From: Corynebacterium sp. BD556
Lineage (GTDB): Bacteria > Actinomycetota > Actinomycetes > Mycobacteriales > Mycobacteriaceae
Length of the DNA stretch: 64,000 nt
Assembly: GCF_038452275.1 (NCBI RefSeq)
Contig: NZ_CP141643.1
Coordinates: forward strand, 1,488,001 to 1,552,000
Direction of reading: 5' to 3'
The notes beneath the pieces are model-generated. The model did not search any database. It was not told the DNA's origin and was given only the letters and a program-made list of their open reading frames with translations. The first letter of the stretch is position 1, and every line of letters starts with the position of its first letter. Below are positions 13,187 to 64,000 of this stretch, piece by piece. Made by a program: the position numbers and the translations under genes.

Positions 13187-14377
13187 TTAGATCAGTTGCT
13201 TGCGTCCATAGAAGAACACCGCTGTGCCCACCACGGAGGCAATCAGCAGGGCGATAAGCCCCTTGGCCAAAGAGTTGGAGCCAGTTTCGGCGGCCATGCC
13301 GCGAACTGCTTGGGCAGAAACTGCGGAGTTTAAGTTTAAGTCGCCCTGCCCGCTGGTTCGTTGCGCATTGGCTGAGCTACCATCGCCTTGGCCGAAGCCG
13401 AAGGAGAAGCCCTCGGAGGAACCGAGCTGCGCCTGGCGCTGGACCTCGCCACGGTTGGAGCTGAGCATCTGCTCGGAGGACATCATTTCTTGCTGGCTGG
13501 GGGTGGTATCAACGCGCGAGGAGTTCTCCACGTAAGTGCGTCCATCCTGGTTGAGGTACCAGCTAATTCCACCGATGACCAGCACCGCCGGAAGGGCAAT
13601 AAGGGCGAGGCGTCCAGCTTCGGACGACCCCGCGTTGCCGGCGGCGGCACCATTGGAAAAGCCTTCGTTCAGCGCGCCGTTTCCGGAGGAGCCGAGTCCG
13701 CTGGAAAACTCTTTGATAATGACGTTGACGGGGAGGGATTTTTTAAGCTCGTTGGCAAAGTCGATGGTGAGCTTGACACCCTGATCACCGCTTTTAACGT
13801 CGGTGTTGACCCGTTCAAGGCTGTCGACGACGAAGTTGATGTCCTTGTTGTAGAACCATTTTGTGCCGTCGAGTTCACCGGCGAGCTCGCCTACGATAGC
13901 CTGCGGCAGCGTGCTGCTGGAAGAAAGGCCAACTACTTGGGCTGCGTTGTCGGCTAAGGAAGATCCGCTGGCGCTAGGCGCTGCGGCCTCGCTATCAGCC
14001 TCGGTGCGGGTGCGGTATCCAGCCTTGTCCGCAAAGACCTCAATGGTCATCCACTTGCCCGCATCGATGAGGGCGATGTCCTTTTCAAAGTCTTCTTTAT
14101 TTTCCACGACATGCTTCGTGTCCTGGTGGTAGAACCATTGTGCGCCCTCGTAGGTTCCGGCGATGCCGCCGGCGATCCACTCCTTGAGGGGAGGTAAATC
14201 CTCCTGGCCTTGTGCGCCTGAGGTGACGGTGCTGTCAGTGGTTTCTTCGGAGGTGGATCCGCCGAAGGAGGCGCTGGAGCCGCCCTGGGCAGACTGCGCG
14301 TCGGCCGCCGGAGCGACGACGAACGTCAAAGCGCTGGTCAGTGCCAGCGCCGGGAGGGACTTCGTGAGGTTGTTCAT
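13187..14377 (-). CDS. secreted surface protein with WFY/YLN repeats and variant sorting signal
   Basis: 396 residues from the ATG at 14377 (GGAG 8 nt upstream). An N-terminal signal peptide (LPALALTSALTFVVAPAADAQS) is clear. Two related motifs follow: EGAQWFYHQDTKHVVE and DGTKWFYNKDINFVVD. After a hydrophobic stretch (LALIALPAVLVIGG) comes a third version, ISWYLNQDGRTYVENSSRVD. The C-terminus is GMAAETGSN, a hydrophobic helix and the tail YGRKQLI, which has the layout of a cell-wall sorting signal with AAETG in the LPXTG position. The motif and tail are shared with the protein at 15350-16162, with the sortase-like gene between them. No known family recognised; wall attachment by that sortase is inference. 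Confidence 0.75.
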   Translation of the reverse strand: MNNLTKSLPALALTSALTFVVAPAADAQSAQGGSSASFGGSTSEETTDSTVTSGAQGQEDLPPLKEWIAGGIAGTYEGAQWFYHQDTKHVVENKEDFEKDIALIDAGKWMTIEVFADKAGYRTRTEADSEAAAPSASGSSLADNAAQVVGLSSSSTLPQAIVGELAGELDGTKWFYNKDINFVVDSLERVNTDVKSGDQGVKLTIDFANELKKSLPVNVIIKEFSSGLGSSGNGALNEGFSNGAAAGNAGSSEAGRLALIALPAVLVIGGISWYLNQDGRTYVENSSRVDTTPSQQEMMSSEQMLSSNRGEVQRQAQLGSSEGFSFGFGQGDGSSANAQRTSGQGDLNLNSAVSAQAVRGMAAETGSNSLAKGLIALLIASVVGTAVFFYGRKQLI

Positions 14378-14414
14378 AAGTAGCTCCATCAGGTGATGAC
14401 AACTCCCAAAAACT

Positions 14415-14426
14415 CTAAAGTCTCAA
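14415..14426 (-). promoter_or_regulatory. 12-bp motif shared by both surface-protein leaders (copy 1)
   Basis: The minus-strand sequence TTGAGACTTTAG lies 37 nt before the start of the secreted protein gene. The identical 12-mer lies 42 nt before the paralogue at 16162. An AT-rich TAGTATAAAT, a plausible -10 box, lies upstream at about 14452-14461. The shared element may be a regulator site or leader element; its role is inference. Confidence 0.45.
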
Positions 14427-14498
14427 GGGAGGGTTTAAGGTCGCAACCCAATTTATACTAAAACCTCTCAAATCACACGAGTCACACCAGCCACATAC

Positions 14499-15350
14499 CT
14501 AACTACCCTTATCTGGGGGTACATCCCATCCCATATTCGCCGCAACCTGCTGCTCACTGACCACCTGATCAAATTGCCACCCCACCACGGCGTTTTTCAC
14601 CGAGTCGGCCAAAGGATTCGCCGGCTGAATACAACTAATGGTCAACAACCTGCCCGGCGTGGCACCCGTGCCCCAGATCTGAGCAGACGCCGACAGCGCA
14701 TCCTTCTGCGGCTCATGCACATCAGTGGCCCGATAGGCCAACCAGTCACTGGAGGAGACTTCAGTACGCACATATAAAACATCGCCGAGTGAGACGGTAT
14801 GACGATTCGCCCGGGCGTCGTAAAGCGAATCGAAAACGGCAGGAACCCCCGCAGCCGCATGACCCGCAATAACCACCACGTCAGGCGCGTCACTGCCCGG
14901 CAGTGAGTACGGGCGATCCGGTGCGGTATAAGCGCATGCCTCACGCAGCCGCGCAGGATCAATGGCGCCATCGACCACCCGACAGTCACCTTTTTCAACA
15001 GGCGCGTCCATCCCAAGCGCAGGCACGGCAAGCTGCACGGGCCGTCCCGGCGCGATCTCTTTCGATTCGGGCGGCGCAATCGGGCGCGGGGCACTAAGCG
15101 TCGCAGCCGCACTTGGCGGCGCGGACCCATCGGAGCCAGCACCTTCGGTGCTTAAGTGTTGGCCAGGTTGCGCACACACAGCGACCACCGCCGCAAGTGC
15201 AGCCAGCAACACCACCAGCGCGCCCAGGCGCCGATAGAAGAAAACCCGCCGGTCCCGGCCCCGCACATCACGGCGCGTGGCGCGCGGCCGGGGCGGCCGG
15301 GGCGGCGGGGTCCGGGGTACGTAGCCCGGCCGAGGCCTACTGGTTGGCAC
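14499..15350 (-). CDS. sortase-like transpeptidase (class E/F-like), type II membrane protein
   Basis: 283 residues. A Pro/Arg-rich cytoplasmic head precedes one membrane helix (residues 41-59, ALVVLLAALAAVVAVCA) and a sortase-type domain. LAVPALGMDAPVEKGDCRV is the typical start of the fold. The catalytic His fits VVVIAGHAA (His164) and the Cys fits LLTISCIQP (Cys240). No Arg follows Cys240 at all, so the third catalytic residue is not in its usual place; Lys252 is the nearest basic residue. The GTG start overlaps the stop of the upstream surface-protein gene by one base, so the two are coupled. Likely substrates are the two flanking secreted proteins. Confidence 0.75.
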   Translation of the reverse strand: MPTSRPRPGYVPRTPPPRPPRPRATRRDVRGRDRRVFFYRRLGALVVLLAALAAVVAVCAQPGQHLSTEGAGSDGSAPPSAAATLSAPRPIAPPESKEIAPGRPVQLAVPALGMDAPVEKGDCRVVDGAIDPARLREACAYTAPDRPYSLPGSDAPDVVVIAGHAAAGVPAVFDSLYDARANRHTVSLGDVLYVRTEVSSSDWLAYRATDVHEPQKDALSASAQIWGTGATPGRLLTISCIQPANPLADSVKNAVVGWQFDQVVSEQQVAANMGWDVPPDKGS

Positions 15351-16162
15351 TACGCCAGCCAGCGGCGCCCGTAAGCGTAGAAGGCGGCACCCAGCACGGA
15401 GGCAACAAGCAAGGCCGCCAAAGCGCGCGGCACCGTGTTATCGCCGGTCTGCGCGCTCATGCCGCGTTCCGAAGCGGCGGCAGCAACCGGGGCTTGCACC
15501 TGGGGCATGTCGTGGGCATCTCCGGCGGTTTTACTTACTCCGACTAGCCCGCCGCCTGCGGTATTTTCTTTGCCTCCAGCTTTGGCCTCGGCGAGTGCCT
15601 GGCGGCCCACCTCGGCACCGTTGTCGGACAGCAACCGGTTGGTGTTGTCCTTTTCTTCCTGCGTCGGCTCCTTGTCGATGCGATCAATGGAGTCGACGTA
15701 GGTTTCGCCGTCGGCGTTGAGGTAGTAGGTCTTGCCCTCAAGCGCGACCACGGACGGCAGGGCGACTAAGCCAGCGGCCACGGGGTGCGGGGAGTCTGGG
15801 TCGACATCATCGGCGGAGAAGGGCACTTCCATTGGCTTGCCCTCCTCAGTGACCTCGCGGGTGGGCCGCTCAGCGTCGCGCTCAGCTTCCTGCCCGGCCT
15901 CGACCAGGCCCGCTGCGGCAGCATCAGAGACTTTCACGGAACGCTCACGCAGATCGCTGGGCAGCTCCTCGAAGGCCTTGTCCACGAGGTCGCGCTCGGG
16001 CACGTAGTGGGTGCGGGCCGAGTTGAGGAAGTATGCCTCGCCGGTGGTAGCGGCCGTTTCCGCCGGAAGTTCCTCTTGGGCAAAAGCGGTGAATCCGGCT
16101 GGGGCGAGTGTGAGCGCGCCAGCGAGGCTCGCGGCCACAAAGGTGATGCGGGTGCGCTTCAT
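15350..16162 (-). CDS. secreted surface protein, paralogue with variant sorting signal
   Basis: 270 residues. Signal peptide FVAASLAGALTLAPAGFTAFAQ, then EAYFLNSARTHYVPERDLVD and later KTYYLNADGETYVDSIDRID, the same YLN-D-TYV motif found in the protein at 13187. The stretch after it (PTQEE, LLSDNGAEVGRQA) also matches that paralogue. The C-terminus is GMSAQTGDN, a hydrophobic helix and the tail YGRRWLA: a sorting-signal layout with SAQTG instead of LPXTG. AGGAG precedes the ATG at 16162. It is the first gene of a two-gene unit with the sortase-like gene. Function otherwise unknown. Confidence 0.75.
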   Translation of the reverse strand: MKRTRITFVAASLAGALTLAPAGFTAFAQEELPAETAATTGEAYFLNSARTHYVPERDLVDKAFEELPSDLRERSVKVSDAAAAGLVEAGQEAERDAERPTREVTEEGKPMEVPFSADDVDPDSPHPVAAGLVALPSVVALEGKTYYLNADGETYVDSIDRIDKEPTQEEKDNTNRLLSDNGAEVGRQALAEAKAGGKENTAGGGLVGVSKTAGDAHDMPQVQAPVAAAASERGMSAQTGDNTVPRALAALLVASVLGAAFYAYGRRWLA

Positions 16163-16275: not shown

Positions 16276-16575
16276 ATGAAGCCAATTAAAACCACCGAAG
16301 TTCCCTCCGACGCCCAGCTCATCGACGTCCGCGAACCCGATGAGTTCAGCATTATCCACGCGAAAAACGCAGTCAACATTCCCCTCAGCGAGCTCACCAC
16401 TCGCCACCAGGAAATCGACCAGCAGCGCGACATTTACCTAATCTGCCAGTCTGGCGGACGCTCCACACAAGCCTGCGAGTACTTAGAAAACGCGCTCGGC
16501 TGGGACCCCGAACGCATTATCAACGTCGAAGGCGGCACCGGCGCCTGGCTCGACGCGGGACTGCCCACCAGTTAA
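16276..16575 (+). CDS. rhodanese-like domain protein
   Basis: 99 residues, a single rhodanese domain. LIDVREPDEFSIIHAKNAVN and the active-site loop CQSGGRS (Cys57), followed by a NVEGGTGAWLDAGLP end, are diagnostic. Such proteins carry persulfide sulfur from thiosulfate or other donors; the substrate here cannot be told. It diverges from the surface-protein operon at 16162 with 113 nt between. Confidence 0.9.
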   Translation: MKPIKTTEVPSDAQLIDVREPDEFSIIHAKNAVNIPLSELTTRHQEIDQQRDIYLICQSGGRSTQACEYLENALGWDPERIINVEGGTGAWLDAGLPTS

Positions 16576-16652: not shown

Positions 16653-17093
16653 ATGCCCAACACCCCCGACCTGCCCTCTGCGTTGACCAAGTCGCCCTCC
16701 TTTCAAATCGAGCGCGTTCGGCGCCATACGAAAGACGAGGTCGAGCGCACCCTTGCGGCGGCAAAAACCACCATGCGCGAGTTTTGGATCCTTACGTGCG
16801 TTGCGGAAAAGCCTTTTTCACAGACCCAGCTTTCGTCGCTTTTAGCGATCGACGCCTCCGACATGGTGCGCCTGATCGATTCGCTAGAAAACCACGGGTG
16901 GGTAACGCGCGACCGCGACCCGAAGGATCGACGTCGGCAGATTGTCACGCCCACAAAGAAGGGCACCAAGGCCCAGGCAGATTTGGCCATCAAGGTGGGC
17001 GAGGCGGAGGAGCGGGCCCTCGATGCCAGCTCGCAAAAGCAGCTCAAGAGCCTCAAGAAGCTGTCCAAGGCGGTTGTGCAGGACAGCGAGTAA
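16653..17093 (+). CDS. MarR family transcriptional regulator
   Basis: 146 residues with a winged helix: FSQTQLSSLLAIDASDMVRLIDSLENHGWV, then the wing VTRDRDPKDRRRQIVTPTKKG. Flanking N- and C-terminal helices would form the dimer interface. It stands 69 nt before the large synthetase gene on the same strand and may regulate it, or a divergent target; ligand unknown. Confidence 0.88.
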   Translation: MPNTPDLPSALTKSPSFQIERVRRHTKDEVERTLAAAKTTMREFWILTCVAEKPFSQTQLSSLLAIDASDMVRLIDSLENHGWVTRDRDPKDRRRQIVTPTKKGTKAQADLAIKVGEAEERALDASSQKQLKSLKKLSKAVVQDSE

Positions 17094-17162: not shown

Positions 17163-20100
17163 ATGAACCACAACGATAGGCTGCGGCGCAGCCACCTCGC
17201 TCCACCTCCGCGCACGCTTATCGACGTTCTCACCAAGACCGCCTCCCGCTACCCCGACGCCGCCGCCATCGACGACGGCGACATCATCACTTATTCGGAA
17301 CTCATCGAACGAGTCAACGAGGTAGCAGACCAGCTCCACCGCGAGGGCATCCGCCGCGGCGACCGTATCGGCATCCGCATGACCTCCGGCAACCGCGAGC
17401 TCTACATCGCCATCTTGGGCACTCTCTGGGCCGGTTGCGCCTACGTGCCCGTCGACGCCGACGACCCGGACGAACGCGCCGAGATCGTCTTTGGCCAAGC
17501 CCGCATCGACGGCATCTTTACAGACGAAGGCTTCCGCCCCCTGACCACCGGCCGCGGCGGCGACACAAAGCAGCCCACGCTCGACGACGACTGCTGGATC
17601 ATCTTCACCTCCGGCTCGACCGGCACCCCGAAAGGAGTAGCTGTCACCCACCGCAGCGCCGCCGCCTTCGTCGACGCAGAGGCCCGCCTATTTTGCCAAG
17701 ACAACCCGTTAGGCCCCGACGACCGCGTTCTCGCCGGACTCTCCGTCGCCTTCGACGCCTCCTGCGAGGAGATGTGGCTCGCCTGGGCGCACGGCGGGTG
17801 CCTCGTGCCCGCGCCACGTTCGATCGTGCGCTCCGGCCAGGACTTAGGCCCCTGGCTGATCCGTCGCGACATTTCCGTCGTGTCCACCGTGCCCACCCTC
17901 GCCGGCCTCTGGCCCGCCGAAGCCCTGGATAATATACGCCTGCTCATTGTCGGCGGCGAAGCCTGCTCACAGGAACTCGTCGACCGCCTAGCTACCCCAG
18001 AGCGCGAAATGTGGAACACCTACGGCCCAACCGAGGCCACCGTCGTTGCCTCCGCGGCGCGGCTGCACCCCGGCGAACCTGTCACCATCGGCTGGGCTCT
18101 CGACGGCTGGGACCTGACAGTACTGGAAAATCAACCCGGTGAAGGCGGCGAGTTGGTCATCGGCGGCGTCGGTCTCGCCCGCTACCTCGACCCAGACAAG
18201 GACGCCGAAAAATACGCCTCCTTGGGTGACTGGGAACGCGCCTACCGCACGGGCGACAACGTGCGTGTCACCGACACAGGTCTGGCGTTTATCGGCCGCA
18301 CCGATGACCAAGTCAAAATCGGCGGGCGGCGCATCGAACTCGGCGAAGTCGAGGCCAACGTGGCTGCCCTTGACGGGGTCTACAACTCTGCTGTGGCGGT
18401 GCAAACCACCGGCGGCGGCGACAAAGTTTTGGTTGGCTACGTCTCCCTCGACAACCCGGACGAACCCTGGGACGTTTCTGCCGCCCGCCAGCGACTTGCC
18501 GAAGTCATGCCAGCCGCCCTCGTGCCGCGACTGCACGTGATGGAGGAGCTGCCCATCCGCACCTCCGGCAAAGTAGACAAAAACGCATTGCCGTGGCCTT
18601 TGCCCGCCACCGCGGAAGTCGAGGGCACAACCCCCACCGAGGCGTGGCTGGCGGGAGTGTGGCTAGATATTTTGGGCATGCCGGTGGAGTCGCGCAACGC
18701 CGACTTCTTCGATCTCGGCGGTTCCTCGCTGGCAGCGGCCTCGCTCATAGCGAAGCTGCGCGAGCGCGTACCCACCATCGCAGTGCGCGACCTCTACGAC
18801 CACCCGCGTTTAGAAATGCTCGCTGAGTTCATCGACTCGCTTGCCGCCACCACACCGGTAACTACCCGTGAGCGCGAGGTCACTGCCGTCGGTGCGGGCA
18901 CCCGCGTAGCGCAAACACTTATTCAAATCCCCGTGTTAACCCTGCACGCCGCCACCTACCTCACGTGGTGGGCTATTTTGGCCAACGCCTTGGGTTTAGT
19001 CCAATTAAGGTGGTCGACGCTGGCTGCCCTTTTCGTCGTGCTGTGTACCCCGCTGGGACGGCTGCACATCGGCGCGCTCGGGGCGCGGCTCATCCGCGGC
19101 CGAATCGTTGCCGGGGACTACCCTCGCGGCGGCACCACCCACCTCAGGTTGTGGGCCGCCGAGCGCTGGGTTCACGCCTCGGGGGCAATGAACCTGTCCG
19201 GCTCGACATGGGTCGCATACTTCGCCCGCCTCCTCGGGGCCAAGGTGGGCCGCGATGTAGACCTTCACTCCCTGCCACCCACCACAGGCCTGCTCACCCT
19301 CGGCAGCGGCGCCGCCGTGGAGCCGGAGGTGGACATGTCCGGCTACTGGCTCGACGGCGACGTCTTGCACGTAGGAACCGTCACCATAGAAAAAGAAGCC
19401 CGCATCGGCGCCCGCTCTACCCTCATGCCCGGCACGGTCATCCACTCCTTCGCACACATTGAGGCCGGTTCGACCGTTACCGGCTTAAAGCCCGTGAAGA
19501 AGAACTCCCGGTGGGCAGGCTCACCGGCGCGCAAGGTGGGACGGTCAAAAAACCGCTTCCCTGATCAGCGGCCCCCGCGGCGGCGCCGGTGGGTGTGGGT
19601 CTACGGCCTGACCTCTGTGCTGATGTCCACCCTGCCGGTCGTGGCGGCGGCTGCAGGCGCGCTCAGTGTCCTTGGCCTCATCTCTTTCAGCGGCGCCACC
19701 CCAGCCTTGGCCGCAGTGTTGTTCGCCCCGGTCGGCGGTGTGGTCTACCTCGGTGTTTCCATGGCCCTGACGTGGTTGTTCGTTCGCGCGCTTTCACCCG
19801 GTGTACGCCCGGGCGTAGCCCCGGTGCGCTCCGCTAGGGGATGGAAGCTGTGGGCCATCACGCGCTTGCTTGACGATGCCCGCACACGTCTCTTTCCGAT
19901 CTACGCTGGCGCGCTGACCCCGCTGTGGATGCGCTCTTTGGGTGCTACGGTCGGCCGGGACGTGGAGATTTCCACCGCCGTGATGGTGCCTAGCCTCACC
20001 ACCGTCAAAGATGGAGCTTTTCTTGCCGACGACACACTGGTAGGCACCTACGAACTGGGCCACGGCTGGATGCGCACCGGGGAGACAACCGTGGGTAAAC

Positions 20101-20960
20101 GCTCCTTCGTGGGCAACTCCGGAATTACGGTGCCAGGACGCAAGCTGGCGAAGAACTCCTTAGTGGCGGTGTTGTCCTCCACGCCGAAGAAGTCGAAGGC
20201 TGGCTCCAACTGGTGGGGTTCTCCCCCGGAGCGGATGCGCCGCGTCGAGGTGGAAACCGCAGGAGGGGAAGATCTCACCTATCGGCCGTCGGCAAGCGTT
20301 AAACGCAAGCGCGGTTTGATTGAGACGATGCGTTTGCTCGCGCCAATGGCCAATGCGATGATCACGGCCGTATTCCTGATCGGCGCGCACACCGCCTTAG
20401 TTGCATGGGGCTGGTGGGCGTTCGCGCTCGGCGGGCTGCTCTACATAGCCACCGCGGTTTTAGCGCTCGTGCTAACCGCCACCGCCAAATGGCTCTGTGT
20501 TGGCAAGCATGTGCCCGGCGAACACCCGCTCTATAGCTGGTTCGTGTGGCTCAACGAACTTCAGGACCAATTCGTCGAAATGGTGGCTGCGCCTTGGTTT
20601 TTCACCCACGCCTACGGCACCGGCGAGATGAACATTGCGCTGCGCTTACTCGGTGTGAAAGTGGGCAAAGGCGCCTGGATCGACTCCTACTGGTTCCCCG
20701 AAACTGATTTGTGTTTCGTCGGCGACGGCGCCACCGTCGGCCCGGGCACGGTCGTGCAAACACACCTGTTCCAAGACCGCGTGATGAGCCTGGACACCGT
20801 CACCATCGAAGCCGGCGCGACACTCGCCGCCCACTCGGTGGCACTGCCGGCCTCCGTCATCGGACGCGGCGCTACCGTCCTACCTGGTTCGCTGCTGATG
20901 CGCGGCGACGACGTCCCCGACAACACACTCTGGCAAGGCAACCCCATCGAACCTTTCTGA
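17163..20960 (+). CDS. Pls/PosA-type nonribosomal peptide synthetase (A-T-membrane tandem domains)
   Basis: 1265 residues. An adenylation domain occupies about residues 12-480: FTSGSTGTPKG (148-158), FDASCEEMW, NTYGPTEATV, YRTGDNV, and SGKVDK with the catalytic Lys470. A carrier domain follows with LGGSSL (phosphopantetheine Ser522). There is no standard condensation or thioesterase domain. Instead, three membrane blocks (around 580-640, 800-870 and 1060-1120) alternate with three hexapeptide-repeat segments (KVGRDVDLHS, TVGRDVEIST, KVGKGAWIDS), the layout of epsilon-poly-lysine synthetase and the TIGR02353 family. It probably polymerises or couples one amino acid at the membrane. Acidic residues in FDASCEEMW might favour a basic substrate; this is inference. 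The ATG lacks a strong ribosome site. Confidence 0.88.
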   Translation: MNHNDRLRRSHLAPPPRTLIDVLTKTASRYPDAAAIDDGDIITYSELIERVNEVADQLHREGIRRGDRIGIRMTSGNRELYIAILGTLWAGCAYVPVDADDPDERAEIVFGQARIDGIFTDEGFRPLTTGRGGDTKQPTLDDDCWIIFTSGSTGTPKGVAVTHRSAAAFVDAEARLFCQDNPLGPDDRVLAGLSVAFDASCEEMWLAWAHGGCLVPAPRSIVRSGQDLGPWLIRRDISVVSTVPTLAGLWPAEALDNIRLLIVGGEACSQELVDRLATPEREMWNTYGPTEATVVASAARLHPGEPVTIGWALDGWDLTVLENQPGEGGELVIGGVGLARYLDPDKDAEKYASLGDWERAYRTGDNVRVTDTGLAFIGRTDDQVKIGGRRIELGEVEANVAALDGVYNSAVAVQTTGGGDKVLVGYVSLDNPDEPWDVSAARQRLAEVMPAALVPRLHVMEELPIRTSGKVDKNALPWPLPATAEVEGTTPTEAWLAGVWLDILGMPVESRNADFFDLGGSSLAAASLIAKLRERVPTIAVRDLYDHPRLEMLAEFIDSLAATTPVTTREREVTAVGAGTRVAQTLIQIPVLTLHAATYLTWWAILANALGLVQLRWSTLAALFVVLCTPLGRLHIGALGARLIRGRIVAGDYPRGGTTHLRLWAAERWVHASGAMNLSGSTWVAYFARLLGAKVGRDVDLHSLPPTTGLLTLGSGAAVEPEVDMSGYWLDGDVLHVGTVTIEKEARIGARSTLMPGTVIHSFAHIEAGSTVTGLKPVKKNSRWAGSPARKVGRSKNRFPDQRPPRRRRWVWVYGLTSVLMSTLPVVAAAAGALSVLGLISFSGATPALAAVLFAPVGGVVYLGVSMALTWLFVRALSPGVRPGVAPVRSARGWKLWAITRLLDDARTRLFPIYAGALTPLWMRSLGATVGRDVEISTAVMVPSLTTVKDGAFLADDTLVGTYELGHGWMRTGETTVGKRSFVGNSGITVPGRKLAKNSLVAVLSSTPKKSKAGSNWWGSPPERMRRVEVETAGGEDLTYRPSASVKRKRGLIETMRLLAPMANAMITAVFLIGAHTALVAWGWWAFALGGLLYIATAVLALVLTATAKWLCVGKHVPGEHPLYSWFVWLNELQDQFVEMVAAPWFFTHAYGTGEMNIALRLLGVKVGKGAWIDSYWFPETDLCFVGDGATVGPGTVVQTHLFQDRVMSLDTVTIEAGATLAAHSVALPASVIGRGATVLPGSLLMRGDDVPDNTLWQGNPIEPF

Positions 20961-21800: not shown

Positions 21801-22700
21801 TTAGTCGCCGATCTGATCTCGGCCACGCTTGACTATCAGCGGGTCAGGTTCACCGACAACGTCATGGTCCTTATTGGTGTACTCGAACTTGCTCAAAATG
21901 TAGCGCATCGCGTTGATGCGGGCGCGCTTCTTGTCATTCGATTTGATGGTGATCCACGGGGACTCATCGGTATCCGTGTACCTGAACTGTTCTTCCTTAG
22001 CGCGCGTGTAATCGTCCCACTTATCCAGCGAGGCTAAATCCATCGGCGAAAGTTTCCACTGGCGCACCGGGTCGACCTGGCGAATAGCGAAGCGGGTGCG
22101 CTGTTCTTTCTGCGTCACCGAGAACCAAAACTTCGTCAGCGAAATCCCAGACCCGAGGATCATATTCTCCAGCATGGGAACTTCGCGCAGAAACTCAGCG
22201 TGTTGGGACTCAGTGCAAAAACCCATAACACGTTCAACACCAGAACGGTTGTACCAGGAGCGGTCGAAGAACACGATCTCACCAGCAGAGGGGAAGTGCT
22301 GAATGTAGCGCTGGAAGTACCAGGACGTGGACTCGCGTGGGGAGGGTTTCTCGAGGGCAATAGTGCGGGCACCGCGGGGGTTGAGGTGCTCATTGAAACG
22401 CTTAATTGTGCCCCCTTTGCCGGCGGCGTCGCGGCCCTCGAAGATAATCATGTGCCGCTGGCCAGTATCTTTCGTCCAATTTTGCCACTTCAACAACTCG
22501 ATTTGCAGCGCGCGCTTGATCTTCTCATAATCTTCGCGGCTCATGCGTTCGTCGTAGGGGTAGTTCTCCCGCCACGTCTCGATCGGAGTGCCGTCGGCCT
22601 TGAGAAGAACCGGATCATCCTCGTCCGAATCGTCCACCCAATACCCTTCCACCTGGGCGAGGTCGATCATCGGCATCTCGTCATCTTTGTGCTCAGACAT
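21801..22700 (-). CDS. ppk2: polyphosphate kinase 2
   Basis: About 299 residues from the ATG at 22700 (an in-frame ATG at 22709 is an alternative). PPK2 moves phosphate between polyphosphate and nucleotides. Walker A is FEGRDAAGKGGTIKRF; VFFDRSWYNRSGVERVMGF and FWFSVTQKEQRTRF with RQWKLSPMDLASLDKW are class I PPK2 hallmarks. The neighbourhood (porA/porH-like genes and groEL2 close by) matches the ppk2A locus of C. glutamicum. Confidence 0.95.
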   Translation of the reverse strand: MSEHKDDEMPMIDLAQVEGYWVDDSDEDDPVLLKADGTPIETWRENYPYDERMSREDYEKIKRALQIELLKWQNWTKDTGQRHMIIFEGRDAAGKGGTIKRFNEHLNPRGARTIALEKPSPRESTSWYFQRYIQHFPSAGEIVFFDRSWYNRSGVERVMGFCTESQHAEFLREVPMLENMILGSGISLTKFWFSVTQKEQRTRFAIRQVDPVRQWKLSPMDLASLDKWDDYTRAKEEQFRYTDTDESPWITIKSNDKKRARINAMRYILSKFEYTNKDHDVVGEPDPLIVKRGRDQIGD

Positions 22701-22934
22701 ACCTATCATTCTAACCGGCGAGGCGGTGTTGCGCCCTGCGAACCAACGGGCTGTTACACAGGCCCTTCTTTGGGCAACCTTACTGCACAGCACGCTTCAA
22801 AAGCGCAGATCGAAACAGGTGGGCCATAGGATGAGCCAGTACAAAACTCGATGGTCAACACCTGAGACGCAGAGGGTAGGGCGACATGGCCGAAGCCAGG
22901 TAACTGGTCGAATCCTGAGCGTGGTCGCGCCTTG

Positions 22935-51734: not shown

Positions 51735-54700
51735 CTAGGAAGATCCCAACGAAGAAGAACCACCGTTGGTATTACCCTCACCAGACCCCAAGTTGTTCTC
51801 AGAGGAAATCTCATCAATCCCCTCCTGCGAAGAACCACCAATCACATCCAAGGACGATCCAGCCTGCTGATTATTATCCGAAGAACCAAGACCACCCGGA
51901 GTACACGCATCCGCGATAACGAGGCCAACAAGCACCACAGCACTGATCGCCGCGAGGCTACCAATCGCCTGCGAAAGGTTCAGACCAAACTTACGCAACT
52001 CCATGTCGATCTGCTCAGCCTGCGCAGCAAGAGCCGGATCAAACAGACCCAAACGCTGCTGAATCATCGCGTTGAAATCCGCAAGCTGCGAGTTGATCTG
52101 ATCCGTGATCGGGGCCAGACCCGGAATCTGCATCTCCGAAGCAATCGCAAGCGGAATCAAGCCCAGCAACGGAAGACCAAAACCAAGGCTCGTAGCGATA
52201 CAACGTCCAAGCTGATCCTCATCCAAGCTAGAGCCCTTAGTCGGCTCAACGATCGTCACGGTAACCGTGTCAATGACCTTATCGTCATTGTCCCTGACCA
52301 CAATGACAATCTTGTCGCCCGGCCGAGCGTCCTGTGACGGAGTGACAACCAAGCTGCCATTGCCGTCAAGCACAGCCGTACCCGGACCAGTGGTCACAGT
52401 AGTCGTTCCTTCCGGAACCTTACCGCCCACGTTCGGAATCGTCACCGGCCGATCCGGAGTAGTAAAGGTGTCATTCCAATCTGGTCTCTGCGAAGAGTCA
52501 ACGATCGTCACGGTAACCGTGTCAATGACCTTATCGTCATTGTCCCTAACCACAATGACAATCTTGTCGCCCGGCTTAGCACCCTGTGACGGAGTGACAA
52601 CCAAGCTGCCATTGCCGTCAAGCACAGCCGTACCCGGACCAGTGGTCACAACAGTCGTTCCTTCCGGAACCTTACCGCCCACGTTCGGAATCGTCACCGG
52701 CTGATCCGGAGTAGTGGAAGTGTCATTCCAATTCGGGTCCTGCGCAGGTGCAACGATCGTCACCGTAACCGTGTCGATGATCTTATCGTCATTGCCCCTA
52801 ACCACAATGACAATCTTGTCGCCCGGCTTAGCAGCCCCCGACGGAGTGACAACCAAGCTGCCATTGCCGTCAAGCACAGCCGTACCCGGACCAGTGGCCA
52901 CAACAGTCGTTCCTTCCGGAACCTTACCGCCCACGTTCGGAATCGTCACCGGCCGATCCGGAGTAGTGGAAGTGTCATTCCAATCCGGAGCCTGCGCAGG
53001 CTCAACGATCGTCACGGTAACCGTGTCAATGACCTTATCGTCATTGTCCCTAACCACAATGACAATCTTGTCGCCCGGCTTAGCACCCTCAGACGGAGTG
53101 ACAACCAAGCTGCCATTGCCGTCAAGCACAGCCGTACCCGGACCAGTGGTCACAGTAGTCGTTCCTTCCGGAACCTTACCGCCCACGTTCGGAATCGTCA
53201 CCGGCCGATCCGGAGTAGTGGAAGTGTCATTCCAATCCGGAGCCTGCGCAGGTGCAACGATCGTCACGGTAACCGTGTCGAGCTCCCTGCCGTTCTTGTT
53301 GTTAACCACAATGACAATCTTGTCGCCCGGCTTAGCAGCCCCCGACGGAGTGACAACCAAGCTGCCATCTCCCTCTAGGCGTGCACTGCCCGGACCAGTG
53401 GTCGCAACAGTCGAGCCTTCCGGAACCTTAGCGCCCACGTTCGGAAGCGTCACCGGCCGATCCGGAGTAGTGGAAGTGTCCTCCCAATTCGGCTTGCCAG
53501 GAACACTATCCGGATCCTTCGGGTTCGAACCCGCATCGATTTCTTCGCCGTCCGGGTAGCCATCATTGTCATCGTCCGGATCCGTGACATCAGGGTCACC
53601 ATCACCATCAGTATCCAACTGGAACGGCGCATCAGTGTTATCCACCGAATTATCCGAATACGTCACCACAACCGGAACATCGAACTGCTCAATGGTGTCC
53701 TTATCCAAAGACTGCGGAGCCATCACCGTGATCACACCGGTGTTCTCATCAATCTCAACGGAATAACCCGCCGGCTTGACATAGCCTTCCTTGATGGCGT
53801 ACTTCGCACCTTCAGGCGCTGCAACATCATTACCGGCCTTGTTCTTAAACTTCGGCGCCGAGGTTGCAGGCGTACCCGGAACAACAAGCGTCAAATCATA
53901 CGTCGGGTCGTAGTACGCAGACTGGTCCGGATCCTTCGGGTTCGTACCCGCATCAATCTCGTCCCCATCCGGAACACCATCATTGTCATCATCCGGATCC
54001 GTGACATCCGGGTCACCATCACCATCAGTATCCAACTGGAACGGCGCATCAGTGTTATCCACCGAATTATCCGAATACGTCACCACAACCGGAACATCGA
54101 ACTGCTCAATGGTGTCCTTATCCAAAGACTGCGGAGCCATCACCGTGATCACACCGGTGTTCTCATCAATCTCAACGGAATAACCCGCCGGCTTGACATA
54201 GCCTTCCTTGATGGCGTACTTCGCACCTTCAGGCGCTGCAACATCATTACCGGCCTTGTTCTTAAACTTCGGCGCCGAGGTTGCAGGCTTACCCGGAACA
54301 ACAAGCGTCAAATCATACGTCGGGTCGTAGTACGCAGACTGGTCCGGATCCTTCGGGTTCGTACCCGCATCAATCTCGTCCCCATCCGGAACACCATCAT
54401 TGTCATCATCCGGATCCGTGACATCCGGGTCACCATCACCATCAGTATCCAACTGGAACGGCGCATCAGTGTTATCCACCGAATTATCCGAATACGTCAC
54501 CACAACCGGAACATCGAACTGCTCAATGGTGTCCTTATCCAAAGACTGCGGAGCCATCACCGTGATCACACCGGTGTTCTCATCAATCTCAACGGAATAA
54601 CCCGCCGGCTTGACATAGCCTTCCTTGATGGCGTACTTCGCACCTTCAGGCGCTGCAACATCATTACCGGCCTTGTTCTTAAACTTCGGCGCCGAGGTTG

Positions 54701-57700
54701 CAGGCTTACCCGGAACAACAAGCGTCAAATCATACGTCGGATCGTAGTACGCAGACTGGTCCGGAACCTTCGGGTTCGTACCCGCATCAATCTCGTCCCC
54801 ATCCGGAACACCATCATTGTCATCATCCGGATCCGTGACATCCGGGTCACCATCACCATCAGTATCCAACTGGAACGGCGCATCAGTGTTATCCACCGAA
54901 TTATCCGAATACGTCACCACAACCGGAACATCGAACTGCTCAATGGTGTCCTTATCCAAAGACTGCGGAGCCATCACCGTGATCACACCGGTGTTCTCAT
55001 CAATCTCAACGGAATAACCCGCCGGCTTGACATAGCCTTCCTTGATGGCGTACTTCGCACCTTCAGGCGCTGCAACATCATTACCGGCCTTGTTCTTAAA
55101 CTTCGGCGCCGAGGTTGCAGGCTTACCCGGAACAACAAGCGTCAAATCATACGTCGGATCGTAGTACGCAGACTGGTCCGGAACCTTCGGGTTCGTACCC
55201 GCATCAATCTCGTCCCCATCCGGAACACCATCATTGTCATCATCCGGATCCGTGACATCCGGGTCACCATCACCATCAGTATCCAACTGGAACGGCGCAT
55301 CAGTGTTATCCACCGAATTATCCGAATACGTCACCACAACCGGAACATCGAACTGCTCAATGGTGTCCTTATCCAAAGACTCCGGAGCCATCACCGTGAT
55401 CACACCGGTGTTCTCATCAATCTCAACGGAATAACCCGCCGGCTTGACATAGCCTTCCTTGATGGCGTACTTCGCACCTTCAGGCGCTGCAACATCATTA
55501 CCGGCCTTGTTCTTAAACTTCGGCGCCGAGGTTGCAGGCTTACCCGGAACAACAAGCGTCAAATCATACGTCGGATCGTAGTACGCAGACTGGTCCGGAT
55601 CCTTCGGGTTCGTACCCGCATCAATCTCGTCCCCATCCGGAACACCATCATTGTCATCATCCGGATCCGTGACATCAGGGTCACCATCACCATCAGTATC
55701 CAACTGGAACGGTGCATCAGTGTTATCCACCGAATTATCCGAATACGTCACCACAACCGGAACATCGAACTGCTCAATGGTGTCCTTATCCAAAGACTGC
55801 GGAGCCATCACCGTGATCACACCGGTGTTCTCATCAATCTCAACGGAATAACCCGCCGGCTTGACATAGCCTTGCTTGATGGCGTACTTCGCACCTTCAG
55901 GCGCTGCAACATCATTACCGGCCTTGTTCTTAAACTTCGGCGCCGAGGTTGCAGGCTTACCCGGAACAACAAGCGTCAAATCATACGTCGGATCGTAGTA
56001 CGCAGACTGGTCCGGATCCTTCGGGTTCGTACCCGCATCAATCTCGTCCCCATCCGGAACACCATCATTGTCATCATCCGGATCCGTGACATCCGGGTCA
56101 CCATCACCATCAGTATCCAACTGGAACGGCGCATCAGTGTTATCCACCGAATTATCCGAATACGTCACCACAACCGGAACATCGAACTGCTCAATGGTGT
56201 CCTTATCCAAAGACTGCGGAGCCATCACCGTGATCACACCGGTGTTCTCATCAATCTCAACGGAATAACCCGCCGGCTTGACATAGCCTTCCTTGATGGC
56301 GTACTTCGCACCTTGAGGCGCTGCAACATCTTTACCGGCCTTGTTCTTAAACTTCGGCGCCGAGGTTGCAGGCTTACCCGGAACAACAAGCGTCAAATCA
56401 TACGTCGGGTCGTAGTACGCAGACTGGTCCGGATCCTTCGGGTTCGTACCCGCATCAATCTCGTCCCCATCCGGAACACCATCATTGTCATCATCCGGAT
56501 CCGTGACATCTGGGTCATCATCACCATCAGTATCCAACTGGAACGGCGCATCAGTGTTATCCACCGAATTATCCGGATACGTCACCACAACCGGAACATC
56601 GAACTGCTCAATGGTGTCCTTATCCAAAGACTCCGGAGCCATCACCGTGATCACACCGGTGTTCTCATCAATCTCAACGGAATAACCCGCCGGCTTGACA
56701 TAGTCTTGCTTGATGGCGTACTTCGTCCCCGCAGGCGGAACGATGTCATTGCCAACAGCATCCTCGCCGTAATTCGGCGCCGAGGTTGCAGGCGTACCCG
56801 GAACAACGCGCGTCAAATCATACTTCGGGTCGAAAGTTTTGTTCATCGGCTCATTCGCCACGATAAGCGAATCCGCCGCCAAGGGGGCATCCCCGTAGTA
56901 CAACGTGGCGCGAATAATCTCACCAGGCTGAGCATTATTCGGAATCGTCAAGGTGCATTCATTCGCCTGGGCGAGAGTGGTGATGTTTTCACACACCTTC
57001 AGCTCAGCACCCGCAGAGTTCGTCCACACAATACGGTTAGTAGCCTCACCTGCAGACGGCGGCAAAATACCCGTGACATCAATAAGCGCGGTCTGCCCAG
57101 GTTGAGCCGGACGATCAGTGGTATTGAAGTTCGTAATCCGCAAATCAACATCCGCGTACGGAATGATAGCGAAGTTCAGGTTGTACCACATCGGGTTGGC
57201 AACAAGGTTTGCCGCCGGAACAGTCTGCGGCGTAACCCCCAACTTATCGTTCGGCCGGACATACAACTGCTCAATAAACGGCGAGTACGTCTTGACAATC
57301 CTTCCTTCAGGATCGCGCACGAAACCGAACATGTAGCTCTTGGTCTCATTCGTGAAGGTTGCCTCATTGAAGCGAACAGCGTAGTAGCCATCCCCAGTAG
57401 TCTCGGTCGAAACTGTCTCAGCGATATACTCTGGATGATCAGTCAGCAGTTCGCGAGCAGCCGCTTGCTGGTTCGGAATGGGCAAGGATTCCACCCTTGC
57501 CGCATACTCCGCAATACCCTGCGGCGTCAGATACGAAAGAACAACCTCGTAGTTCGGAGCTGCAGCATCCCTTCCGGTCTTGCTAGGCCCATCAATGCGA
57601 ATATCGCGGGTATCCAACCACACAAAACCTGAAGTCGTCCCCTTCGCATTCAGGTTCACCGCAACATTAGACAAATTCCGAGTCTCAGTATCATACTTCC

Positions 57701-58412
57701 ACTCCGATTCCGGCTTGTGCATGTAGCTAGAAACATTAGCCGGCGTCATGAAAACAGCAGTCCGCTGCATATTCTTAATACCGGAACCACCCTTGGTCGC
57801 ACCGAGCAAAGACCTAGACTCAGCATAAGAACCAGGGAAGAAACCCGGCGCCTGACGGAAAGGCTCAAGACGCACACCGTTGACAGGATCATCATAAGGA
57901 TCAACCCAGATACGGAAATGCTGATCAGACTTCGCCTCGTAGATGTGCTCCCTGCCGAAGTTATCCGTCCACGGCGCCCGCAGATCAAACGCGTACGCAC
58001 CAGGACCAGCCTGGCTAGTGGCAACACTCGACAAAGCGTTGGAAGTCTTCGCCGTATACAGCGGAGACACAGCACCATCCGAGTCAATCCACCGCAAGTA
58101 GACCGTCGTTCCTTCCGGAACCGGATCAGTCCACGTGGTATTCGACGTGTTCATGTCGGTGGAATCAAGAACATACGCGCGACCGGACAGCACATGCTGC
58201 TTGACCTGCATGTGACTTTCGCTAGCAACGTAACCGCTAGCGATTGCATCAGCATCGATAGTATTTTGTGCCGATGTCTGCGCTTGCGCAGCACCAACAA
58301 ACCCAGCCTTGACCGGCGAGACAGTGGCCACGGCAGGGGCCACAAGAGCAAGCGACAACGCCGCTGCGGCGATTGTCGTACCCCGCCGAACTCCATTCTT
58401 TCGAGAATGCAT
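51735..58412 (-). CDS. giant secreted repeat protein 1 (Rib-like/calcium-binding repeats)
   Basis: About 2225 residues from the ATG at 58412 (AGGAG 7 nt upstream; an ATG 15 nt earlier has no ribosome site). Signal peptide TTIAAAALSLALVAPAVATV, ending near AQAQT. Residues 1-523 form a unique N-terminal region. Residues 524-1635 are eight 139-residue units, each a Rib/alpha-like domain (PAGYSVEIDENTGVITVMAP; VPVVVTYSDNSVDNTDAPF) plus a TSP3-like calcium stretch (DTDGDGDPDVTDPDDDNDG). Residues 1636-2055 are five 84-residue units (TTPDRPVTIPNVGGKVPEG). The last 170 residues hold hydrophobic helices (LGRCIATSLGFGLPLLGLIPL; AAISAVVLVGLVIADA) and a Ser/Gly tail; no LPXTG. Probable adhesin or envelope stalk. 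Confidence 0.88.
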   Translation of the reverse strand: MHSRKNGVRRGTTIAAAALSLALVAPAVATVSPVKAGFVGAAQAQTSAQNTIDADAIASGYVASESHMQVKQHVLSGRAYVLDSTDMNTSNTTWTDPVPEGTTVYLRWIDSDGAVSPLYTAKTSNALSSVATSQAGPGAYAFDLRAPWTDNFGREHIYEAKSDQHFRIWVDPYDDPVNGVRLEPFRQAPGFFPGSYAESRSLLGATKGGSGIKNMQRTAVFMTPANVSSYMHKPESEWKYDTETRNLSNVAVNLNAKGTTSGFVWLDTRDIRIDGPSKTGRDAAAPNYEVVLSYLTPQGIAEYAARVESLPIPNQQAAARELLTDHPEYIAETVSTETTGDGYYAVRFNEATFTNETKSYMFGFVRDPEGRIVKTYSPFIEQLYVRPNDKLGVTPQTVPAANLVANPMWYNLNFAIIPYADVDLRITNFNTTDRPAQPGQTALIDVTGILPPSAGEATNRIVWTNSAGAELKVCENITTLAQANECTLTIPNNAQPGEIIRATLYYGDAPLAADSLIVANEPMNKTFDPKYDLTRVVPGTPATSAPNYGEDAVGNDIVPPAGTKYAIKQDYVKPAGYSVEIDENTGVITVMAPESLDKDTIEQFDVPVVVTYPDNSVDNTDAPFQLDTDGDDDPDVTDPDDDNDGVPDGDEIDAGTNPKDPDQSAYYDPTYDLTLVVPGKPATSAPKFKNKAGKDVAAPQGAKYAIKEGYVKPAGYSVEIDENTGVITVMAPQSLDKDTIEQFDVPVVVTYSDNSVDNTDAPFQLDTDGDGDPDVTDPDDDNDGVPDGDEIDAGTNPKDPDQSAYYDPTYDLTLVVPGKPATSAPKFKNKAGNDVAAPEGAKYAIKQGYVKPAGYSVEIDENTGVITVMAPQSLDKDTIEQFDVPVVVTYSDNSVDNTDAPFQLDTDGDGDPDVTDPDDDNDGVPDGDEIDAGTNPKDPDQSAYYDPTYDLTLVVPGKPATSAPKFKNKAGNDVAAPEGAKYAIKEGYVKPAGYSVEIDENTGVITVMAPESLDKDTIEQFDVPVVVTYSDNSVDNTDAPFQLDTDGDGDPDVTDPDDDNDGVPDGDEIDAGTNPKVPDQSAYYDPTYDLTLVVPGKPATSAPKFKNKAGNDVAAPEGAKYAIKEGYVKPAGYSVEIDENTGVITVMAPQSLDKDTIEQFDVPVVVTYSDNSVDNTDAPFQLDTDGDGDPDVTDPDDDNDGVPDGDEIDAGTNPKVPDQSAYYDPTYDLTLVVPGKPATSAPKFKNKAGNDVAAPEGAKYAIKEGYVKPAGYSVEIDENTGVITVMAPQSLDKDTIEQFDVPVVVTYSDNSVDNTDAPFQLDTDGDGDPDVTDPDDDNDGVPDGDEIDAGTNPKDPDQSAYYDPTYDLTLVVPGKPATSAPKFKNKAGNDVAAPEGAKYAIKEGYVKPAGYSVEIDENTGVITVMAPQSLDKDTIEQFDVPVVVTYSDNSVDNTDAPFQLDTDGDGDPDVTDPDDDNDGVPDGDEIDAGTNPKDPDQSAYYDPTYDLTLVVPGTPATSAPKFKNKAGNDVAAPEGAKYAIKEGYVKPAGYSVEIDENTGVITVMAPQSLDKDTIEQFDVPVVVTYSDNSVDNTDAPFQLDTDGDGDPDVTDPDDDNDGYPDGEEIDAGSNPKDPDSVPGKPNWEDTSTTPDRPVTLPNVGAKVPEGSTVATTGPGSARLEGDGSLVVTPSGAAKPGDKIVIVVNNKNGRELDTVTVTIVAPAQAPDWNDTSTTPDRPVTIPNVGGKVPEGTTTVTTGPGTAVLDGNGSLVVTPSEGAKPGDKIVIVVRDNDDKVIDTVTVTIVEPAQAPDWNDTSTTPDRPVTIPNVGGKVPEGTTVVATGPGTAVLDGNGSLVVTPSGAAKPGDKIVIVVRGNDDKIIDTVTVTIVAPAQDPNWNDTSTTPDQPVTIPNVGGKVPEGTTVVTTGPGTAVLDGNGSLVVTPSQGAKPGDKIVIVVRDNDDKVIDTVTVTIVDSSQRPDWNDTFTTPDRPVTIPNVGGKVPEGTTTVTTGPGTAVLDGNGSLVVTPSQDARPGDKIVIVVRDNDDKVIDTVTVTIVEPTKGSSLDEDQLGRCIATSLGFGLPLLGLIPLAIASEMQIPGLAPITDQINSQLADFNAMIQQRLGLFDPALAAQAEQIDMELRKFGLNLSQAIGSLAAISAVVLVGLVIADACTPGGLGSSDNNQQAGSSLDVIGGSSQEGIDEISSENNLGSGEGNTNGGSSSLGSS
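52248..53507 (-). repeat. five tandem 252-bp repeats in surface gene 1
   Basis: Each 252-bp unit codes 84 residues (WNDTSTTPDRPVTIPNVGGK to TVTVTIV). Units differ at few positions; the unit nearest the 139-residue repeats is the most divergent (NKNGRELDTV instead of DNDDKVIDTV). Boundaries are approximate. Confidence 0.9.
53508..56843 (-). repeat. eight tandem 417-bp repeats in surface gene 1
   Basis: Eight units of exactly 417 bp (139 codons). Inner units are almost identical at the DNA level; the two outermost units are more divergent, as expected when a repeat array grows from the middle by unequal exchange. Boundaries are approximate. Confidence 0.93.
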
Positions 58413-58866
58413 CGAGGATCTCCTCATTTAAGAGACGAATATTTCAAGAACGAAGTACACAAGTCCTCAGATTTGCCTACGGAATCAAAAACATCCGCCC
58501 GCAAGTCACACAACAACCTACATTCAGCAGGAAAATTGCATACTGGATTGATTACTTCCGTAAACAAACTTAAATTAGAACCCAGTGATTGGCAAGCAAA
58601 GTGTCATTTTTTTGATAGGCGGGTCGGCTGATTCTTCAATAATTCCACGCAGCGCACAGTTACCAGGCAGGTATTTTTCATAAGTCATCGCGACACGTTA
58701 GTTGTGGATGCATTTTTTGATCAATTTCACAGAATGGTGCCATTATTTGAAGTTTCAGGCGTAATCCCATTCCCTCTATGCAGCTTTTGACCACGAAGAA
58801 TCAAGTCTTTTTGGCTTTAAAGCCGGCCGAGGCCCCGACTTGTTAAGGCAATGGAGAAGTTGCTCA
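58413..58866. promoter_or_regulatory. leader of surface gene 1 and spacer
   Basis: 58413 to about 58606 closely matches the leader of gene 2 (63773 to about 63966), so it was duplicated with the gene and should hold the promoter. From about 58610 on, the sequence is unique, AT-rich and has no gene; GGCTTTAAAGCC near 58815 is a short palindrome. Confidence 0.6.
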
Positions 58867-59431: not shown

Positions 59432-62400
59432 CTAGGAAGATCCCAACGAGGAAGAACCACCGTTGGTATTACCCTCACCAGACCCCAAGTTGTTCTCAGA
59501 GGAAATCTTATCAATCCCCTCCTGCGAAGAACCACCAATCACATCCAAGGACGATCCAGCCTGCTGATTATTATCCGAAGAACCAAGACCACCCGGAGTA
59601 CACGCATCCGCGATAACGAGGCCTGCAAGCACCACGGCACTGATCGCCGCGAGGCTACCAATCGCCTGCGAAAGGTTCAGACCAAACTTACGCAACTCGT
59701 TGTCGATCTGCTCAGCCTGCGCAGCAAGAGCCGGATCAAACAGACCCAAACGCTGCTGAATCATCGCGTTGAAATCCGCAAGCTGCGAGTTGATCTGATC
59801 CGTGATCGGGGCCAGACCCGGAATCTGCATCTCCGAAGCAATCGCAAGCGGAATCAAGCCCAGCAACGGAAGACCAAAACCAAGGCTCGTAGCGATACAA
59901 CGGCCAAGCTGATCCTCATCCAAGCTAGAGCCCTTAGTCGGCTCAACGATCGTCACGGTAACCGTGTCAATGACCTTATCGTCATTGTCCCTGACCACAA
60001 TGACAATCTTGTCGCCCGGCTTAGCACCCTGTGACGGAGTGACAACCAAGCTGCCATTGCCGTCAAGCACAGCCGTACCCGGACCAGTGGTCACAACAGT
60101 CGTTCCTTCCGGAACCTTACCGCCCACGTTCGGAATCGTCACCGGCTGATCCGGAGTAGTGGAAGTGTCATTCCAATTCGGGTCCTGCGCAGGTGCAACG
60201 ATCGTCACCGTAACCGTGTCGATGATCTTATCGTCATTGCCCCTAACCACAATGACAATCTTGTCGCCCGGCTTAGCAGCCCCCGACGGAGTGACAACCA
60301 AGCTGCCATTGCCGTCAAGCACAGCCGTACCCGGACCAGTGGCCACAACAGTCGTTCCTTCCGGAACCTTACCGCCCACGTTCGGAATCGTCACCGGCCG
60401 ATCCGGAGTAGTGGAAGTGTCATTCCAATCCGGAGCCTGCGCAGGCTCAACGATCGTCACGGTAACCGTGTCAATGACCTTATCGTCATTGTCCCTAACC
60501 ACAATGACAATCTTGTCGCCCGGCTTAGCACCCTGTGACGGAGTGACAACCAAGCTGCCATTGCCGTCAAGCACAGCCGTACCCGGACCAGTGGTCACAG
60601 TAGTCGTTCCTTCCGGAACCTTACCGCCCACGTTCGGAATCGTCACCGGCCGATCCGGAGTAGTGGAAGTGTCATTCCAATCCGGAGCCTGCGCAGGTGC
60701 AACGATCGTCACGGTAACCGTGTCGAGCTCCCTGCCGTTCTTGTTGTTAACCACAATGACAATCTTGTCGCCCGGCTTAGCAGCCCCCGACGGAGTGACA
60801 ACCAAGCTGCCATCTCCCTCTAGGCGTGCACTGCCCGGACCAGTGGTCGCAACAGTCGAGCCTTCCGGAACCTTAGCGCCCACGTTCGGAAGCGTCACCG
60901 GCCGATCCGGGGTAGTGGAAGTGTCCTCCCAATTCGGCTTGCCAGGAACACTATCCGGATCCTTCGGGTTCGAACCCGCATCGATTTCTTCGCCGTCCGG
61001 GTAGCCATCATTGTCATCGTCCGGATCCGTGACATCAGGGTCACCATCACCATCAGTATCCAACTGGAACGGTGCATCAGTGTTATCCACCGAATTATCC
61101 GAATACGTCACCACAACCGGAACATCGAACTGCTCAATGGTGTCCTTATCCAAAGACTGCGGAGCCATCACCGTGATCACACCGGTGTTCTCATCAATCT
61201 CAACGGAATAACCCGCCGGCTTGACATAGCCTTGCTTGATGGCGTACTTCGCACCTTGAGGCGCTGCAACATCTTTACCGGCCTTGTTCTTAAACTTCGG
61301 CGCCGAGGTTGCAGGCTTACCCGGAACAACAAGCGTCAAATCATACGTCGGGTCGTAGTACGCAGACTGGTCCGGATCCTTCGGGTTCGTACCCGCATCA
61401 ATCTCGTCCCCATCCGGAACACCATCATTGTCATCATCCGGATCCGTGACATCAGGGTCACCATCACCATCAGTATCCAACTGGAACGGTGCATCAGTGT
61501 TATCCACCGAATTATCCGAATACGTCACCACAACCGGAACATCGAACTGCTCAATGGTGTCCTTATCCAAAGACTGCGGAGCCATCACCGTGATCACACC
61601 GGTGTTCTCATCAATCTCAACGGAATAACCCGCCGGCTTGACATAGCCTTCCTTGATGGCGTACTTCGCACCTTCAGGCGCTGCAACATCTTTACCGGCC
61701 TTGTTCTTAAACTTCGGCGCCGAGGTTGCAGGCGTACCCGGAACAACAAGCGTCAAATCATACGTCGGGTCGTAGTACGCAGACTGGTCCGGATCCTTCG
61801 GGTTCGTACCCGCATCAATCTCGTCCCCATCCGGAACACCATCATTGTCATCATCCGGATCCGTGACATCTGGGTCATCATCACCATCAGTATCCAACTG
61901 GAACGGCGCATCAGTGTTATCCACCGAATTATCCGGATACGTCACCACAACCGGAACATCGAACTGCTCAATGGTGTCCTTATCCAAAGACTCCGGAGCC
62001 ATCACCGTGATCACACCGGTGTCCTCATCAATCTCAACGGAATAACCCGCCGGCTTGACATAGTCTTGCTTGATGGCGTACTTCGTCCCCGCAGGCGGAA
62101 CGATGTCATTGCCAACAGCATCCTTGCCGTAATTCGGCGCCGAGGTTGCAGGCCTACCCGGAACAACGCGCGTCAAATCATACTTCGGGTCGAAAGTTTT
62201 GTTCATCGGCTCATTCGCCACGATAAGCGAATCCGCCGCCAAGGGGGCATCCCCGTAGTACAACGTGGCGCGAATAATCTCACCAGGCTGAGCATTATTC
62301 GGAATCGTCAAGGTGCATTCATTCGCCTGGGCGAGAGTGGTGATGTTTTCACACACCTTCAGCTCAGCACCCGCAGAGTTCGTCCACACAATACGGTTAG

Positions 62401-63772: not shown

Positions 63773-64000
63773 CGAGGATCTCCTCATTTAAGAGACGAAT
63801 ATTTCAAGAACGAAGTACACAAGTCCGCAGAATTGCCCACGGAATCAAAAACATCCGCCCGCAAGTCACACAACAACCTACATACAGCAGGAAAATTGCA
63901 TACCGGATTGATAACTTCCGAACCTGAACTTAAGTTAGAACCCAGCAAATAGCAACTAAAATGTAATTTTCTTATATAAGCCAACAACCCAATCCCGTGA
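63773..64000. promoter_or_regulatory. leader of surface gene 2, to the window edge
   Basis: The first about 190 bases match the leader of gene 1 with scattered changes; the remainder is AT-rich and unique. No gene is visible up to the right edge. Confidence 0.55.

Follow-up and report, generated by a model that had tools for sequence, protein, structure and literature searches.

A predicted epsilon-poly-L-lysine synthetase of Corynebacterium sp. BD556 with an unlinked M1 peptidase as its likely partner

The 64,000-nucleotide stretch of Corynebacterium sp. BD556 DNA analysed here (the window) carries a gene of the Pls/PosA family that, judged by its sequence, very probably encodes an epsilon-poly-L-lysine (epsilon-PL) synthetase, Pls, with an M1 peptidase encoded elsewhere in the genome as its likely partner. 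Epsilon-poly-lysine serves as an antimicrobial preservative in food; Corynebacterium is common on skin and cheese. By itself the enzyme is ordinary for the genus and belongs to a known kind of membrane enzyme; epsilon-PL synthetases in Corynebacterium are already on record (PMC8117764, PMC12542688). What appears to be new, within a literature check that was not exhaustive, is the strict co-inheritance of pls with a peptidase gene to which it is not linked.

Results

Domain organization of the synthetase

The reading frame of pls is unbroken, from an ATG start through 1265 codons to the stop. The gene and its parts are as follows.

17163..20960, plus strand: pls, 1265-aa Pls/PosA-family synthetase (TIGR02353; 7WEW A domain, E = 4e-173)
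17199..18590, plus strand: adenylation (A) domain, residues ~13-476 (Pfam AMP-binding; TIGR01733 above cut-off; 7WEW alignment)
17754..17768, plus strand: first pocket residues D198, A199 and E202 (same letters in the 7WEW alignment; PosA equivalents)
18645..18833, plus strand: carrier (PP-binding) domain, residues 495-557 (Pfam PF00550)
18726-18728, plus strand: phosphopantetheine Ser522, within DLGGSS (invariant in 127/127 aligned homologues)
18894..19097, plus strand: first membrane helix pair, residues ~578-645 (AlphaFold2 model, hydropathy)
19236..19556, plus strand: first beta-helix (hexapeptide) block, residues ~692-798 (Pfam Hexapep, AlphaFold2 model)
19587..19793, plus strand: second membrane helix pair, residues ~809-877 (AlphaFold2 model, hydropathy)
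19938..20216, plus strand: second beta-helix block, residues ~926-1018 (AlphaFold2 model)
20292..20498, plus strand: third membrane helix pair, residues ~1044-1112 (AlphaFold2 model, hydropathy)
20655..20954, plus strand: third beta-helix block, residues ~1165-1264, with the invariant QTHLFxDRxM (AlphaFold2 model, alignments)
20763-20765, plus strand: His1201 of the QTHLFxDRxM motif, residues 1199-1208 (invariant in alignments)

The first-pass annotation had placed the protein in TIGR02353 and had named this membership beforehand as a point on which its reading could fail. The profile search returned 733.9 bits against a cut-off of 423.1 (residues 582-1262, E = 1.8e-220), a score that excludes a chance match. 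Pfam recognized AMP-binding (1e-54), PP-binding (residues 495-557, 9e-13) and Hexapep (740-774), and its search of the whole protein found no condensation or thioesterase domain. The annotated arrangement of a single A domain and a single carrier domain with Ser522, with neither of the latter two domains, is thus confirmed. A single full copy of pls is present in the genome, one contig of 2.35 Mb. The closest named relative retrieved came from Corynebacterium lipophiloflavum, at 77% identity in the best segment.

The substrate pocket

The A domain aligns over its full length with that of the epsilon-poly-lysine synthase of Streptomyces albulus (7WEW, 581 bits), its best solved relative. Extraction of the specificity residues (positions 198, 199, 202, 241, 262, 264, 286, 294, 295 and 470) gave the code DAESIGTVVK, which is identical to that of 7WEW at 10/10 positions, pocket codes being a better guide to the class of the side chain than to the exact substrate. 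The same code is common to 111/127 aligned homologues. The acidic residues of FDASCEEMW had earlier been read as a hint of a basic substrate, and the alignments bear this out. D198 and E202 of this segment align with Asp217 and Glu221 of PosA, the delta-poly-L-ornithine synthetase of Acinetobacter baumannii, in which these two residues bind both substrate amines; A199 falls at the position of PosA Met218, which is Ala in lysine-activating members (PMC10522769). These matches, together with the pocket identical to that of Pls, narrow the predicted basic substrate to L-lysine.

The C-terminal membrane unit

We modeled residues 566-1265 with AlphaFold2, using an input alignment of 61 sequences. 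The model (mean pLDDT 93.3, pTM 0.92) has three helix pairs, that is, six membrane helices, which alternate with three beta-helix blocks, in agreement with the three membrane blocks and three hexapeptide segments of the first-pass annotation. Of the three hexapeptide blocks, the first alone scores above the Pfam cut-off; the evidence for the second and third comes from TIGR02353 and the model. Searched against solved structures by sequence and by fold, the unit matched single beta-helix proteins only, mostly acetyltransferases. The structure search found no solved structure of the whole unit and returned beta-helix proteins only, with query TM-scores <=0.15. Within the third block, Q1199, H1201, D1205, R1206 and M1208 of QTHLFxDRxM are constant in 127/127 homologues, including those of a second paralogue described below, and the same is true of H660. 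Beta-helix acyltransferases commonly use a histidine, which makes the invariant His1201 a candidate catalytic residue, and we propose the QTHLFxDRxM motif as a candidate condensation site. The helix-pair and triple beta-helix layout is the same as that modeled for PosA, with which BD556 Pls shares the entire A-T-membrane order and the amine-binding Asp and Glu (PMC10522769).

The M1 peptidase

G000:C1:2118765-2120006, minus strand: Peptidase_M1 protein, 414 aa (Pfam M1), ~0.6 Mb from pls

The BD556 protein contains HELAHQWFGN (the HEXXH motif) and the downstream Glu of NEGFA. It is 49% identical to an M1 protein encoded next to pls in Gordonia; the other M1 match of the BD556 genome is 29% identical. 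An M1 metallopeptidase gene follows pls in 69/80 retrieved loci, within ~160 bases in 63 of them, and outside Corynebacterium it lies closely 3' of pls in 69/70. The 11 loci (of 80) without it comprise nine titled Corynebacterium, one Mycobacteriaceae metagenome-assembled genome with the Corynebacterium gene order, and one that is cut by a contig end. In several cases the M1 gene and pls share four bases, an overlap consistent with the translational coupling reported for pls-pldII of S. albulus (PMC9223678). The S. albulus system and that of BD556 are alike in domain order, pocket residues and TIGR02353 C-terminal unit; they differ in that pldII directly follows pls in S. albulus, whereas the M1 gene of BD556 is unlinked. 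The latter is the usual condition in Corynebacterium. Four Corynebacterium genomes (G024, G040, G095 and G116) have M1 beside pls, as reported for C. variabile, in which pls and the peptidase gene form an operon. We looked for the same adjacency at the window locus and rejected it: pls lies there between marR and ech/ppk2, there is no M1 gene, and the homologue is ~0.6 Mb away. From linkage and co-inheritance, the M1 protein is probably a PldII-like partner with epsilon-PL as its substrate.

The M1 gene is overlapped by one for a 403-aa multi-pass membrane protein (G000:C1:2117590-2118798, minus strand), flippase-like by eye and with no Pfam match. In some mycobacteria a gene that is also flippase-like by eye follows pls and M1. 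We rejected the flippase-like gene of BD556 as a third partner, since neither the Fisher test (p 0.31) nor the independent pairs gave significance.

Distribution and co-inheritance in Corynebacterium

A TIGR02353 match above the cut-off was present in 111/151 Corynebacterium genomes sampled. The matches form two score groups, a main group at 650-915 bits, which includes the window protein at 736, and a second at ~500-554 bits in about 19 genomes. The second paralogue (loci L096-L114) has the same layout, 41-44% identity in the best tblastn segment, and a code, DAESIG[TS][VI]IK, similar to the DAESIGTVVK of BD556. Directly after it, 14/19 loci encode a membrane protein, one member of which matches Pfam HGSNAT_cat; in 6/19 it is preceded by a protein that looks esterase-like by eye. 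The second paralogue may make a polymer that is acylated or modified in some other way. Both genomes that have the second paralogue only (G003 and G030) are without the M1 gene, which suggests that its product is handled differently. A fragmented TIGR02353 gene with four stop codons was seen at G100:C1:19652-21756, in a Corynebacterium genome that is also without the M1 gene.

Main-group pls and M1 occur together in 109 of the 151 genomes and are both absent from 40; one genome has pls only and one has M1 only (Fisher p about 3e-34). The presence lists for this table were entered by hand before cross-tabulation, G101 and G113, where genes are split, and G129, with a fragment at a contig end, being scored as present, and genomes with the second paralogue only as lacking pls. 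The two discordant genomes (G092 and G078) are 77%-complete assemblies. Relatedness inflates counts of co-occurrence, and an rpoB tree was therefore made for 100 of the 151 genomes. On this tree pls and M1 show 15 state changes each. In the 11 independent pairs that differ in pls across well-supported branches, M1 agrees in 11/11 (sign test p 0.00098), the branch support being rough because the bootstrap is not fully settled. The same pair test applied to control genes gave p about 1 for the flippase-like gene and a median p of 0.25 for marR. The simplest account suggested by these data is that Corynebacterium keeping pls need the M1 peptidase.

The pls site in the chromosome

The genes that frame pls are listed below.

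16276..16575, plus strand: single-domain rhodanese, backbone gene (Pfam; conserved order)
16653..17093, plus strand: MarR-family regulator, backbone gene of the genus, directly upstream of pls (Pfam MarR; conserved order)
21801..22793, minus strand: polyphosphate kinase 2 (ppk2), backbone gene flanking the pls site on the side opposite marR (TIGR03707)

We compared 31 main-group Corynebacterium loci, the window counted. The marR gene is directly upstream of pls in 29, and most have the rhodanese before marR and ppk2 after pls. In genomes without pls, marR is often still beside ppk2, and in several ppk2 directly follows marR; pls thus occupies a fixed site, at which it is either present or absent. 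The regulator noted earlier does adjoin pls and is possibly co-transcribed with it. A role dedicated to pls was rejected, since marR, found in 136/151 Corynebacterium genomes, is kept in 29/41 that lack main-group pls. A scan for promoters and terminators yielded no promoter-like site, and terminators no more than expected by chance.

The first-pass annotation had also pointed to an adjoining sortase-like locus. The gene concerned (14499-15350, minus strand) reaches 21.8 bits, short of the Pfam cut-off of 26.6, and is beside pls only in near relatives, and we rejected the link. It lies in a segment (13187-16162, minus strand) that also encodes two uncharacterised proteins whose C-terminal part is similar; the copy number of these genes near marR varies in close relatives. 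Elsewhere in the window, two giant neighbouring proteins (51735-58427 and 59432-63787, both minus strand) have RibLong and bacterial TSP3 repeats, with near-parallel domain content.

Discussion

By analogy with its characterized relatives, the A domain of BD556 Pls would adenylate L-lysine and load it onto the phosphopantetheine carried by Ser522. The triple beta-helix unit, embedded in the membrane, would then link the carbonyl of this thioester to the epsilon-amine of either a free lysine or the growing chain, repeatedly, and the chain would be released extracellularly as a cationic isopeptide homopolymer, presumably antimicrobial. The PldII-like M1 peptidase, as the likely partner, would shorten or degrade the polymer and protect the producer. 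The nearest experimental precedent is from the same genus and family: C. variabile Pls expressed in S. coelicolor made epsilon-PL of 26-35 residues, whereas no polymer was detectable from C. variabile, nor did the gene yield any in C. glutamicum (PMC8117764). The same epsilon-PL cluster is predicted in corynebacterial isolates from skin (PMC12542688).

The identity of the monomer is the first matter on which another reading could be entertained. Known relatives all use diamino acids, and the PosA domain bound lysine in crystals too, though it prefers ornithine (PMC10522769), so that the enzyme might build a related isopeptide polymer from ornithine, diaminobutyrate, diaminopropionate or beta-lysine. 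This is quite improbable given a pocket identical to that of Pls and unlike those of the enzymes for other monomers: PosA has DMEHNGTVSK, with a Met at the second pocket position that is absent from BD556 Pls (Ala199), the epsilon-poly-beta-lysine enzyme has DGESISVVNK, and in PDAP synthetase the position of PosA Met218 is Phe. Chain length is another matter. Short lysine oligomers, rather than 25-35-mers, might act on the producer's envelope or as a signal, their length tuned by M1. The 26-35-mers made in Streptomyces by the C. variabile enzyme argue against this proposal, which we judge improbable even though the long polymer went undetected in both corynebacterial hosts and the M1 partner is near-obligatory.

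As to the type of product, the first-pass annotation had named two, an isopeptide homopolymer or one amino acid attached to a lipid or wall target. The homopolymer is favoured; the attachment found no support. The DltA model gives the protein 176 bits against an equivalog cut-off of 560, its C-terminal unit is throughout of the homopolymer-synthetase type, and the strict inheritance of pls together with a peptidase gene implies that a peptide is made. An envelope modifier of the DltA/LysX type, coupling a single amino acid to an acceptor that is a lipid or part of the cell wall, is accordingly very improbable, although it would agree with a membrane unit made of beta-helices related to acyltransferases and with the finding of no polymer in wild corynebacteria.

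A need for M1 in species that keep pls would be expected of a peptidase that shortens or breaks down a toxic lysine polymer produced by Pls, and the data suggest that M1 is a conserved self-protection or trimming partner. A broader and rather unlikely view is that pls and the unlinked M1 gene constitute a two-locus module in Corynebacterium whose product acts on the producer's envelope, for which reason every species with pls would require the peptidase; the polymer, or a short oligomer, would then have a conserved role at the cell surface across the genus and not only an occasional antimicrobial one. Most of the Corynebacterium sampled carry pls, yet our literature check, which was not exhaustive, found no native production of epsilon-PL. 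The near-perfect co-inheritance of pls and M1 offers a reason why the polymer has gone unseen: degradation may keep pace with synthesis.
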